From Streptomyces sp. CB02980 (lineage in GTDB: Bacteria > Actinomycetota > Actinomycetes > Streptomycetales > Streptomycetaceae), in the NCBI RefSeq assembly GCF_014451325.2, contig NZ_JACSCH020000001.1, positions 1 through 47,384 on the forward strand: a stretch of 47,384 nt of DNA, in the 5' to 3' direction. The first letter of the stretch is position 1; every line of letters starts with the position of its first letter. The notes under the pieces were generated by a model. That model searched no databases and had not been told where the DNA came from. It saw nothing but the letters and a program-made list of their open reading frames with translations. A program made the translations under genes and the position numbers. Of the stretch, positions 17,186-19,473 are shown piece by piece.

Positions 17186-17235
17186 CCGGTGCGGTCTCCG
17201 GCCACACCCCCACGGCGTTCAGCTGGTTCACACGC

Positions 17236-17520
17236 AGCGGGGCAGAGATGCTCCACGAGTCCGCCGCACGGGCCGACGAGGTGCTGTGCCTGAACGTGGA
17301 AGACCTCTATCCGCAGGACAAGCGGGGGAAGATCACGGCCAAGGGCGGGGCGACCGAGTGGATTCACTGGCAGTCCGGCACCGCCCAGCTCCTGCCCCGC
17401 CTCATCGCCCGCCGCACCCGCGGCCCGCTGTTTCTCACCGACCGCAAGGCTCCGGCCCGGAACACCGACGCTCGACGTGTGCCCGGAGACCGGCCGGGCC
17501 CGGCTCTCCTACCGCCGCGC
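17236..17520 (+). pseudogene. Tyrosine recombinase (integrase) fragment
   Basis: The frame encodes SGAEMLHESAARADEVLCLN, then VEDLYPQDKRGKITAKGGAT and a Leu/Arg-rich stretch to LFLTDRKAPA: the part of a tyrosine recombinase around the first catalytic Arg (AARADE) and the Lys beta-hairpin (ITAKGG). A frameshift near 17465 leads to TPTLDVCPETGRARLSYRRA in another frame, after which the His-x-x-Arg and Tyr boxes are absent. The following frame to TGA 17777 (VVYHIRPTEAPGTEMAGEIS and on) is unrelated and unrecognised. This is a relic of an integrated element; it also lacks the N-terminal core-binding domain. Confidence 0.75.
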
Positions 17521-17800: not shown

Positions 17801-18013
17801 TTACACGGGGTTCTGCAGCCCGCCGTCGGTCAGCGCCCGGCGGGCCTCTTCGCGGCTGAGCGGTTTGCGGTGGGGTGGGGCGAGGCGGCAGTCGCCGATG
17901 TGGACGCTGTCCGCGACCGGCAGCCCGCCCTCACGCAGGAATGACAGGACCCAGCCGGGCCCTTCCGGGAGCTGCCGTATGGGGCGCAGTGCGGCCTCGC
18001 GCCGCGCTGGCAC
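17801..18013 (-). pseudogene. DUF6233-like fragment
   Basis: From GTG 18013 the frame encodes 70 residues with the pattern of the DUF6233 tail: LPEGPGWVLSFLREGGLPVA, then VHIGDCRLAPPHRKPLSREE and ARRALTDG. In complete members a CxxCRPD segment follows; here the frame ends in GLQNPV before it. The N-terminal half of the usual protein is also missing. DUF6233 proteins are common, uncharacterised Streptomyces proteins. It lies between the integrase relic and the ADF/cofilin gene, transcribed away from the latter. Confidence 0.45.
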
Positions 18014-18047
18014 TCACGCCGGCGCGAGTACCGAATCCTGACGTTCA

Positions 18048-18073
18048 GTTACTATGCACAAACGCAGTGTAAC
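18048..18073. promoter_or_regulatory. 26-bp dyad operator upstream of the ADF/cofilin gene
   Basis: GTTAC-N2-TGC (18048-18057) is mirrored by GCA-N2-GTAAC (18064-18073) with a 6-bp centre, giving eight paired positions per arm. An overlapping shorter pair CACAAA/TTTGTG spans 18057-18080. The dyad ends 21 bp before ATG 18095, so a bound regulator would cover the promoter core or the transcription start. The GTNAC half-sites resemble BldD-type boxes, but the spacing is long; the cognate regulator is unknown. Confidence 0.5.
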
Positions 18074-18094
18074 TATTTGTGAATGGGGAAAGCC

Positions 18095-18511
18095 ATGCCA
18101 CCGGTTGCCACGGTCAACGACGTATGCCTGGACGAATACCAGGCCCTGAAGCTCCGCAAGAAGCACAAGTACGTCGTCTTCAACCTCAACGACGACAACA
18201 CGGAGATCGTCGTCGAGAGGGTCTCCAGCTCGGAGAGCTACGACGACTTCATCGCGGATCTCCCGGAGGCGGAATGCCGCTGGGCCGTCTACGACTTCGA
18301 GTTCGAGCAGGAGGGCGCCGGGAAGCAGGAGAAGCTCACCTTCATCTCGTGGGCCCCGGACACGGCCAATGCCGAGCAGAAGACGCTCTTCGCTGCCTCC
18401 AAAAACGAGCTCCGACGCTCACTGAACGGCATCGCGGTGGAGATCGAGGGGACCGATCACAGCGAGGTCGGCTACGAGTCGCTCCTCGACATGGCGAAGC
18501 AAAGGAAGTGA
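18095..18511 (+). CDS. ADF/cofilin-family actin-binding protein homologue (ADF-H domain)
   Basis: ATG 18095 follows GGGGAAAG at five bases and gives 138 residues (an in-frame ATG at 18083 adds four). The whole protein is one ADF-homology domain of normal length. By memory of yeast cofilin it matches from end to end: LKLRKKHKYVVFNLNDDNTE at residues 18-37, SYDDFIADLPEAEC at 48-61, WAVYDFEFE at 63-71, FISWAPDTA at 83-91, the actin-binding long helix ASKNELRRSLNGI at 101-113 (K103, R107 and R108 conserved), and GTDHSEVGYESLL at 119-131. The regulatory N-terminal Ser of eukaryotic cofilins is not evident. There is no signal peptide or membrane segment. In eukaryotes the family severs and depolymerises actin. 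The codons are GC-rich like those around, so transfer, if it occurred, is not recent. Family assignment is firm; role in a bacterium is unknown. Confidence 0.93.
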   Translation: MPPVATVNDVCLDEYQALKLRKKHKYVVFNLNDDNTEIVVERVSSSESYDDFIADLPEAECRWAVYDFEFEQEGAGKQEKLTFISWAPDTANAEQKTLFAASKNELRRSLNGIAVEIEGTDHSEVGYESLLDMAKQRK

Positions 18512-19059
18512 CCTGGCACCCCGCTCACCGTCCGGCGCCCCACTGAGGTAGCGAGCCCTAGGGACGTGTCGCCCCGGCGCCAGGTATGGCCGGCTGCATG
18601 GTCCTGGTGCCCGACGGTGGGCGGATGCCGACCTTCGGCCGCGTACGCGGCGTCCTCGGCGGCTTCACGGGCCTGACGCCCGTTCTCGGAGCGCTTCCGC
18701 ATCCGCATCTGCGCGCTGCACGCCGCCGCCAGGTCCGACAGGTCCCGTACTTCGTCCTCGCTCCACACCCGGGGCGAAGGGTCCATCACGGCAAGGACGC
18801 CCAGGACCTCGCCTGAACCTCCGATGAGAGGCACACCGGCGAACGCGAAAGCCGCCACGCCGTCCTCGGCGCGTGCGAGGAACTGGGAAAATCCGCTCTC
18901 CGCGACCCGCCGACAGCACTCCAGCACCTCCGGGGCGGGAACCCTTTCGGGCGGCCAGCACTCGGGGAGCGCCCCTGCGGCCTCGCCGGCGGGCTCCAGC
19001 CAGACGAGCCCGAGCGGGACCGCCAGGACACGGGTGGCGAGCCGGGCGAACCGATTCAA
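18472..19059 (-). CDS. GAF-domain protein, probably truncated
   Basis: I start at TTG 19059, seven bases behind GGGAGGG, for 195 residues (the frame is open to 19098). Residues about 1-125 read as a GAF sensor domain: LNRFARLATRVLAVPLGLVW, FLARAEDGVAAFAFAGVPLI and VLGVLAVMDPSPRVWSEDEV, then RDLSDLAAACSAQM and a charged coiled helix. Such N-termini usually precede PAS, kinase or PP2C phosphatase domains. Here the frame after AAYAAEG turns into low-quality sequence and stops at 18472, overlapping the last 40 bp of the ADF gene on the other strand. The catalytic part appears to have been lost when this junction formed. Confidence 0.65.
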   Translation of the reverse strand: MNRFARLATRVLAVPLGLVWLEPAGEAAGALPECWPPERVPAPEVLECCRRVAESGFSQFLARAEDGVAAFAFAGVPLIGGSGEVLGVLAVMDPSPRVWSEDEVRDLSDLAAACSAQMRMRKRSENGRQAREAAEDAAYAAEGRHPPTVGHQDHAAGHTWRRGDTSLGLATSVGRRTVSGVPGHFLCFAMSRSDS

Positions 19060-19473
19060 GCGTGCCCTCCCAACAATCCTGTGCGGAGCAAGGCGCAACG
19101 TGCTTGCCGCAACCAGGCCGTGGGGCCTTTCGCCTCGGGCCCATTTTAGGTGGGAGAGCGCCGTGAAGCGCGTATACCTCTGAAGCCGACGGGCGTCGGG
19201 AGCATCGGTACAGCAGTTGACACGAGAACGATCATGCTCAGCCAGGAGCTGCCCAACGGATCCTCGCTAGTGCACCCGTCGACCTGTTCCCATCGAGGAG
19301 CCGGTGCAGTGTGCCCACGCTCGCAGGCGTGCACACCTTTTGGGGCAAATGCACCCACCTTCGCATGAAACCGGATTACTGATTACTTTCCGTAACGTTT
19401 CTGCTTCTTAGGGTGCGGTTCGGGGTGAGTCGTTCGGCGAACCCCCACACCTCCTCCAAGGAGTCAACTGATC
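19060..19473. other. Intergenic region, about 410 bp, with a short repeated segment
   Basis: No convincing gene. At 19151-19177 GTGGGAGAGCGCCGTGAAGC lies in a segment nearly repeated at 21009-21035 in the luciferase-like relic, and ATCGGTACAGCA (19204-19215) recurs at 20866-20877. The right end holds the hydrolase promoter and a ribosome binding site (CTCCAAGGAGTCAACTGATC). Confidence 0.45.

Follow-up and report, generated by a model that had tools for sequence, protein, structure and literature searches.

Cofilin is chiefly a eukaryotic family, and the presence of an ADF/cofilin gene in the genome of Streptomyces sp. CB02980 raises the question of what role a cofilin might have in a cell without actin, and of where such a gene came from. 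We approached both through a stretch of 47,384 nucleotides of this genome that carries the gene (the window) and through its homologues in other genomes. The initial annotation had described cofilin as rare in bacteria; it is indeed uncommon there, but Streptomyces cofilins were already on record, as the structure of the S. griseoflavus protein (PDB 5IVU, released 2017-03-29) and as a table row in a 2009 paper, 'A homolog only in Streptomyces (112791749), probable HGT' (PMC2651865). That row concerns the same phenomenon as the window gene and, as a row, contains no analysis of donor, spread or protein surface. In the open-access literature we found no paper naming 5IVU and, among the matches listed, nothing besides the row in PMC2651865 that deals with where Streptomyces cofilins came from, how widely they occur or what they do. 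Bacterial cofilin itself is thus already known, and the new elements here are the proposed donor, the proposed cassette, and the division into copies that keep the actin face and a copy that has partly rewritten it.

Transfers of cytoskeletal genes from eukaryotes to bacteria are rarely documented (excerpt of PMC3254629), and well-documented cases are few. In one of them, Microcystis aeruginosa PCC 7806 carries a eukaryote-type actin and profilin (same excerpt). The likeness to the window is that cytoskeletal genes moved from a eukaryote into a bacterium and were then altered; the difference is that in Microcystis a genomic island carries both the actin and its partner, which form an enclosure (excerpt of PMC3254629), whereas here the regulator occurs alone, without its filament, in several genera of one family.

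The window encodes a complete single-domain cofilin

The window gene (Table 1) is present as a single copy in its own genome. That it is complete and intact, as first annotated, is borne out by its 138-codon frame and by a match to the Pfam family Cofilin_ADF (PF00241) that spans residues 11-132 of the protein and positions 1-124 of the 125-position profile (E 1.4e-37; 128.7 bits against a curated cut-off of 22.4). The long helix, the FISWAPDTA motif and the C-terminal motifs are present as quoted there. An in-frame ATG also occurs at 18083, 12 bases upstream; the start at 18095 is equivalent to that of most homologues in the alignment, and the purine-rich GGGGAAAG lies directly before it. GC content by codon position is 0.594/0.341/0.906, in agreement with the GC-rich, adapted codon use noted earlier, and third-position GC is similar in the copies of Embleya hyalina (0.920) and S. 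rhizosphaerihabitans (0.905).

Table 1. Features in and around the cofilin gene, in window coordinates
Feature	Position	Strand	Evidence or remark
Possible tyrosine-integrase remnant	17200..17463	+	PF00589 13.6 bits, E 0.059, below the 27.1 cut-off; weak
DUF6233 remnant, just upstream of the conserved block	17801..18013	-	PF19746 42.2 bits, cut-off 27.6
Conserved upstream block (promoter/leader candidate)	18036..18094	+	CCTGACGkwCmGTTAsyAT...CArTGyrA...GGrGAAmGyC up to ATG
ADF/cofilin gene	18095..18511	+	138 codons and TGA stop; frame open throughout
Gln78 codon (yeast R80, F-actin contact), contact residue changed	18326..18328	+	Alignment; excerpt of PMC3541276
Glu94 codon (yeast R96, G-actin contact), charge reversed	18374..18376	+	Alignment; excerpt of PMC3541276
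Thr97 codon (yeast M99, long helix)	18383..18385	+	Met in 39/39 fungal rows
GAF-domain ORF, convergent, overlapping the cofilin 3' end	18472..19098	-	PF01590 36.7 bits, cut-off 22.4
Met133 codon (yeast R135, F-actin contact), changed	18491..18493	+	Alignment; excerpt of PMC3541276

No second Pfam family matched the window protein above its cut-off, and an NCBIfam search matched 0 of 4 proteins. The protein is a single ADF-H domain of 138 residues (the yardstick for a single-domain member being about 140) without extra domains. Its AlphaFold2 model, built from a 69-row alignment, reached a pLDDT of 91.6 and a pTM of 0.86, and the best ten rows of a Foldseek search of the PDB with this model were all cofilins or actophorin, with TM scores of 0.91 to yeast cofilin (1cfy) and 0.92 to S. 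griseoflavus cofilin (5ivu_B). The latter is also the best PDB match by sequence (180 bits), with 60-61% identity and TM scores of 0.89-0.92 overall. Judged by the length of the family match, the predicted fold and the single-domain layout, the window protein is a member of the ADF/cofilin family by descent.

The actin-contact face is partly rewritten in the window copy

In yeast cofilin, R96 and K98 are implicated in G-actin binding, R80, K82, R135 and R138 are essential for F-actin binding, and the first five residues are needed for G-actin binding (excerpt of PMC3541276). R80, K82 and K98, together with the long-helix M99, are invariant in all 39 fungal rows of our alignment. In the window protein the G-actin site retains K98 (its K96) and carries a glutamate in place of R96; at the F-actin site K82 is retained, and R80, R135 and R138 are replaced by Gln, Met and Gln, the last of these read by counting columns beyond the end of the yeast row. 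The N-terminus is altered as well, reading MPPVATV against M-x-S-G-V in most bacterial relatives, such that the Ser and the Gly conserved in fungi have both been changed.

Among columns conserved in at least 95% of 35 fungi (35 of the 39 fungal rows, omitting yeast and three rows with odd C-termini, P0026, P0028 and P0066), which include 6 of 10 pre-listed contact sites, the window protein changes 4 of 6 contact columns against 7 of 30 others (Fisher p 0.057, in a comparison chosen post hoc). In the remaining 18 main-clade bacteria, 101 of 108 contact cells are intact, as are 489 of 540 cells at other fungal-conserved positions. S. griseoflavus cofilin, read by eye, keeps the basic contact residues and the long-helix methionine (R, K, K, K and M at yeast positions 80, 82, 96, 98 and 99), of which the window protein retains only a part. 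Two states coexist, with the face kept in Embleya and S. griseoflavus and rewritten in the window copy and, in part, in S. youssoufiensis. The sister sequence P0042 (support 98/81 in the 70-row tree described below) also lacks R80 and K82, so that the F-site loss may in part be common to both. None of the other 23 bacterial rows is as acidic as the window protein, whose net charge is -11; they range from -7 to 0, and 38 fungal rows range from -6 to 0.

Retention of the face in most main-clade relatives would follow either from a real contact with actin or from too little time for its loss, and its partial rewriting in the window copy argues against filament severing. The action on eukaryotic actin that the initial annotation had envisaged is accordingly doubtful for this copy, in which residues mostly kept in main-clade relatives have changed (R80 to Q, R96 to E, R135 to M).

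Possible partners in a cell without actin

Searching for the Actin family (PF00022) in seven genomes with ADF-H genes, three carrying the close cofilin type and four carrying other types, we found no eukaryote-level actin. The best score over the seven was 44.4 bits for a single stretch and 50.3 bits together with its neighbours. In the window's own genome the family was matched in two places (27.0 bits, or 36.5 with neighbours), and such Actin-family relatives were all that was found. E. coli and B. subtilis, used as controls, give the same kind of weak match, and we infer that these matches represent MreB/Mbl. Agaricomycete hosts of cofilin differ in having actin.

No signal peptide was seen in the window protein by eye, and the protein presumably stays inside the cell. 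None of its neighbours links the gene to cell-shape genes. Our preferred reading, held tentatively and at close to even chances, is that the window gene encodes a cytosolic, agaricomycete-derived cofilin whose actin face has been partly rewritten and which binds a bacterial partner rather than severing eukaryotic actin. Under this scheme, Streptomycetaceae would have acquired a single ADF/cofilin domain from an agaricomycete (mushroom-forming) fungus, and the gene would then have passed among actinomycetes as a one-gene cassette. Transcription would begin in the conserved upstream block, the protein would be made in the cytosol, and the window copy would bind a host actin-fold filament, the MreB/Mbl type being our guess for the partner, with the remaining part of the long-helix G-site (K96, K103, R107 and R108 of the window protein) making the contact.

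On the unlikely side, yet the strongest competitor to a bacterial partner, is the view that the whole family still targets eukaryotic-type actin and that the window copy is a variant, the protein disturbing the actin of fungi, amoebae or grazers after release by lysis or through an injection machine. The well-kept contact cells of main-clade bacteria and the residues of S. griseoflavus cofilin speak for it, as does a patchy, accessory-gene-like spread; but contact retention may reflect recent transfer, the Embleya branches being short, and the window copy itself has lost four of the six contacts. The three main-clade carriers examined (G000, G024 and G806) lack eukaryote-level actin. As to export, the lack of a visible signal peptide is unfavourable, and no linked delivery genes were noticed in three neighbourhoods. 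A phage-sheath family protein occurs in 3 of 3 carriers (G000, G024, G806), a count that covers carriers only and says little; with no link of these proteins to the gene, we do not propose contractile-injection delivery.

We regard as clearly unlikely a combined picture, in which a mobile, mushroom-derived cofilin cassette with a bacterial promoter is kept by Streptomycetaceae, has its actin face under selection although these cells themselves lack such actin, and is aimed at the actin of other organisms, with the window lineage splitting off towards a bacterial filament.

Selection on the window gene

Selection was assessed with codon models on the DNA of three main-clade copies. Pairwise omega under GY94 was 0.13 between the window and Embleya, 0.28 between the window and S. 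rhizosphaerihabitans (L011), and 0.15 for the third pair, with omega=1 fitting worse in each case (2dlnL 34, 14 and 38). In a three-branch model the window's own branch had an omega of about 0.30, and omega=1 on that branch was not clearly rejected (2dlnL about 3.5, ~1.8 log units). The counting methods differ a lot: NG86 gave dN/dS ratios nearer neutral for the three pairs (0.58, 0.95 and 0.53, from 0.19/0.33, 0.25/0.26 and 0.20/0.37), and YN00, for one pair, 0.17/1.08. We give preference to GY94 with F3x4 frequencies because third-position GC is about 0.9, although another weighting is possible. Constraint on the window's own branch is likely on these estimates, which are only suggestive.

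The same figures bear on the idea that the captured gene is now decaying in the window lineage, being perhaps expressed but without a selected function. The branch estimate and the NG86 ratios would suit such decay, as would the changed contact residues and N-terminal Ser-Gly, the acidic drift of the protein, the gene remnants that flank this copy, and the existence of an ADF-H copy in another genome (G1035) that is split between two frames (L033, L043). Decay is nevertheless improbable in our judgement, for the frame, the ribosome-site region and the upstream block have stayed intact while the protein diverged to 62-70% identity, pairwise GY94 omega is well below 1, and 23 of 30 non-contact conserved columns are kept.

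Basidiomycete fungi as the probable source of bacterial cofilin

PF00241 was matched in 7 of 199 genomes of relatives, 17 of 392 of the genus, 19 of 394 of the family and 2 of 394 of the class, in overlapping samples each of which takes in the window's own genome (one of the two in the class sample). Of four genomes with the Embleya genus code, one has a match. Inspecting translations by eye, we found that among the genus sample's 17 carriers the close cofilin type is present in 2 (the window's own genome and G024), one (G329) has the more distant P0121 type, one (G078) a fragment of another type, and 13 have solely a divergent ADF-H family. A protein-database search with a 25-row profile gave 842 matches, and the 120 of them listed include 22 entries named as Streptomyces, Embleya or Kitasatospora besides the window protein itself, the others coming from fungi or being metagenome proteins without a name. 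Agaricomycete cofilins (Lyophyllum, Termitomyces, Asterophora, Tephrocybe) are 63-70% identical to the window protein over 89-99% of its length.

We built trees from 71 rows, from 41 rows with divergent families, from 70 rows (adding 5ivu and omitting the long branches L031 and P0123), and from 59 named rows only. A 63-row set omits seven rows of unknown source, and the 59-row sets also omit P0046, P0099, P0121 and 5ivu, comprising 28 agaricomycetes, 11 other fungi, 19 main-clade bacteria and actophorin as the sole outgroup. In all four trees the window copy groups with other Streptomycetaceae copies amid agaricomycete fungi; its neighbours include Lyophyllaceae-type mushrooms (Tephrocybe, Lyophyllum, Asterophora, Termitomyces), and the shortest bacterial branches are those of Embleya and Kitasatospora. 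In the 41-row tree the bacterial set has a support of 96/94, the set that also takes in five agaricomycetes 95/85, and a wider set with two more agaricomycetes and a smut fungus 97/96. Backbone support among the agarics is modest. P0046 and P0099 sit with other agarics in the 71-row tree, Amanita falls among the bacteria in the 59-row tree, and the 70-row tree joins Embleya and Kitasatospora only loosely to the other bacteria.

Topology tests on the 59 rows rejected trees in which agaricomycetes stand apart from the bacteria (AU p 0.040) and those in which basidiomycetes do (p 0.004), and did not reject bacteria and agaricomycetes together (p 0.56), a constraint whose likelihood was slightly above that of the free tree. 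Holding all fungi apart was rejected while the rows of unknown source were included (p 0.028, and p 0.0006 in the 70-row set) and was not rejected without them (p 0.157 for 63 rows, p 0.319 for 59 rows). The earlier significance had leaned on those rows, and we dropped this constraint as a test of nesting; it says little, because a single outgroup row can slide next to the bacteria, and it gives the nesting no support either.

A basidiomycete source of the bacterial cofilin is thus well supported and an agaricomycete source moderately so; within the agaricomycetes, a donor near Lyophyllaceae is our best guess, from nearness in the trees alone. This narrows the source to mushroom-type fungi. 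The gene transfer into bacteria proposed at the outset holds up as a likely fungal origin, the bacterial sequences falling within basidiomycete fungi and not branching deeply beyond the eukaryotes, even if not all tests were significant. The opposite course, in which fungi took theirs from an old bacterial ADF-H family, or vertical inheritance, appears very improbable: Streptomyces more often carries a second, divergent ADF-H family and the strict sets did not reject fungi apart, but both the basidiomycete and the agaricomycete constraint were rejected, and PF00241 is as sparse in the class and in Embleya as the counts above show.

Whether the gene entered once or repeatedly was a further point. 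The free trees suggest multiple independent transfers, and the AU tests do not show them: a single bacterial clade was not rejected in sets of 25, 25, 24, 28 and 26 rows (p 0.246, 0.185, 0.482, 0.125 and 0.314), and was rejected (p 0.004) only in a 29-row set with the long branches L031 and P0123. The value of 0.48, from the 70-row set, also bears on 5ivu, for which one clade with the window clade was not rejected.

A conserved upstream block without conserved neighbours

A block directly upstream of the gene is common to the window, Embleya hyalina (L010) and S. rhizosphaerihabitans (L011). Across these three copies the last 70 bases before the start score 20-22 on alignment, where 500 single-base shuffles each reach no more than 8-10, and the preceding 70 bases align at the shuffled level. 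Transcription presumably starts within this block, which would then act as a promoter. It is different from the dyad that had been taken as the gene's own operator: the repeat AGTTAC-16-GTAACT does exist, but it is absent from the Embleya and S. rhizosphaerihabitans copies, and we reject it as an operator, a perfect repeat of at least 6 bases arising in 296 of 1000 shuffles when the 75 bases concerned are shuffled.

We also searched three genomes for the three-copy pattern at up to 3 mismatches, with the reversed pattern as control, and obtained 3 matches versus 5 in G000, 8 versus 3 in G024 and 5 versus 2 in G806. The sole exact match in each genome was the cofilin gene itself, as built into the pattern, and the seven weak extra matches inspected formed no coherent gene set, so that we do not claim a regulon.

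In the 20-40 kb surrounding the gene, no neighbour was found in a syntenic arrangement among the window, L010 and L011, in a comparison limited to these three neighbourhoods with ORFs from a home-made picker. Sigma-factor ORFs match between the window and L010 in a different arrangement and were not scored as synteny. Because the upstream block is conserved without a conserved neighbour order, the cofilin gene likely constitutes, with its leader, a one-gene cassette that has moved between actinomycetes. Next to the window copy, the DUF6233-like scrap and the GAF gene described earlier are both real by their Pfam scores (Table 1); of the 'integrase relic', the family match is present but sub-threshold, and two longer frames at that site matched no Pfam family. 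Pieces of IS4/5-type transposases lie ~3 kb from the L011 cofilin. We found no phage match for the window clade. Three plasmid matches are 28-31% identical to the window protein; the sole one translated is of a divergent kind with the motif NLTHDEL (L044, 7986-8390), and plasmid carriage of the window clade is not proposed.

A C-terminal fragment (66 residues) of a eukaryote-type cyclophilin A lies at 8527-8724 of L011, ~1.3 kb from the S. rhizosphaerihabitans cofilin, with 3pmp and 3o7t as its closest PDB entries. Joint transfer with a fungal cyclophilin was considered and dropped, since a match at E 8e-20 or better is present in 112 of 199 Streptomyces genomes; the Streptomyces eukaryote-type cyclophilin is perhaps itself an old transfer.

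The host assembly comprises 9,065,694 bases in 85 contigs (99.99% complete, 0.09% contamination), and the gene lies ~18 kb into a contig of 845,781 bases, among ordinary bacterial genes (by Pfam, a sigma factor, a carboxymuconolactone decarboxylase, and DoxX-like, GAF and DUF676 esterase-like genes). Contamination or an assembly artefact, with fungal DNA caught in a bacterial assembly, has next to no chance of being correct: the family's eukaryotic character and the short unhosted contigs (532-570 bases) of some closest matches (P0003, P0005) might suggest it, but the gene stands as one copy in a long contig of a near-complete genome, with bacterial third-position GC and bacterial genes on either side, its relative P0006 sits in a 7.3 Mb contig, and its upstream block is common to three bacterial genomes.

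Other ADF-H genes in bacteria

A second, commoner ADF-H family in Streptomyces, marked by the motif NLTHDEL, is represented by L006, L008, L009, L013, L016 and P0128, the last of which was aligned with 43 relatives. P0128, L006 and L013 are 30-34% identical to the window protein, and the family forms a long separate branch with support of 100/100 in the 41-row tree. Its model (pLDDT 89.8) has the same order of helices and strands as the window protein, and its best PDB profile matches are actophorin (E 1.1e-28) and Arabidopsis ADF1. Both proteins have the PF00241 domain, but the contacts of the long helix are not kept in the NLTHDEL family, which may be a separate, older acquisition.

More unusual forms were seen in single genomes. 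In G659, from another family of the class, two frames of 382 and 406 codons (C1:190680-191456 and 312215-312931; L023-L026) each contain two tandem ADF-H matches, a twinfilin-like layout in a bacterium. The split gene of G1035 lies at C28:6201-6561 and represents a decayed copy. A very divergent ADF-H gene in another genus of the same family (L029; G789, C2:170365-170718) has a 132-codon frame and, in the 41-row tree, a branch length of 3.5. A strongly diverged one (L031; G1019, C1:20832-21170) is located 20.8 kb short of the end of a contig of 8.83 Mb, a position that fits the proneness to exchange of the ends of linear Streptomyces chromosomes.
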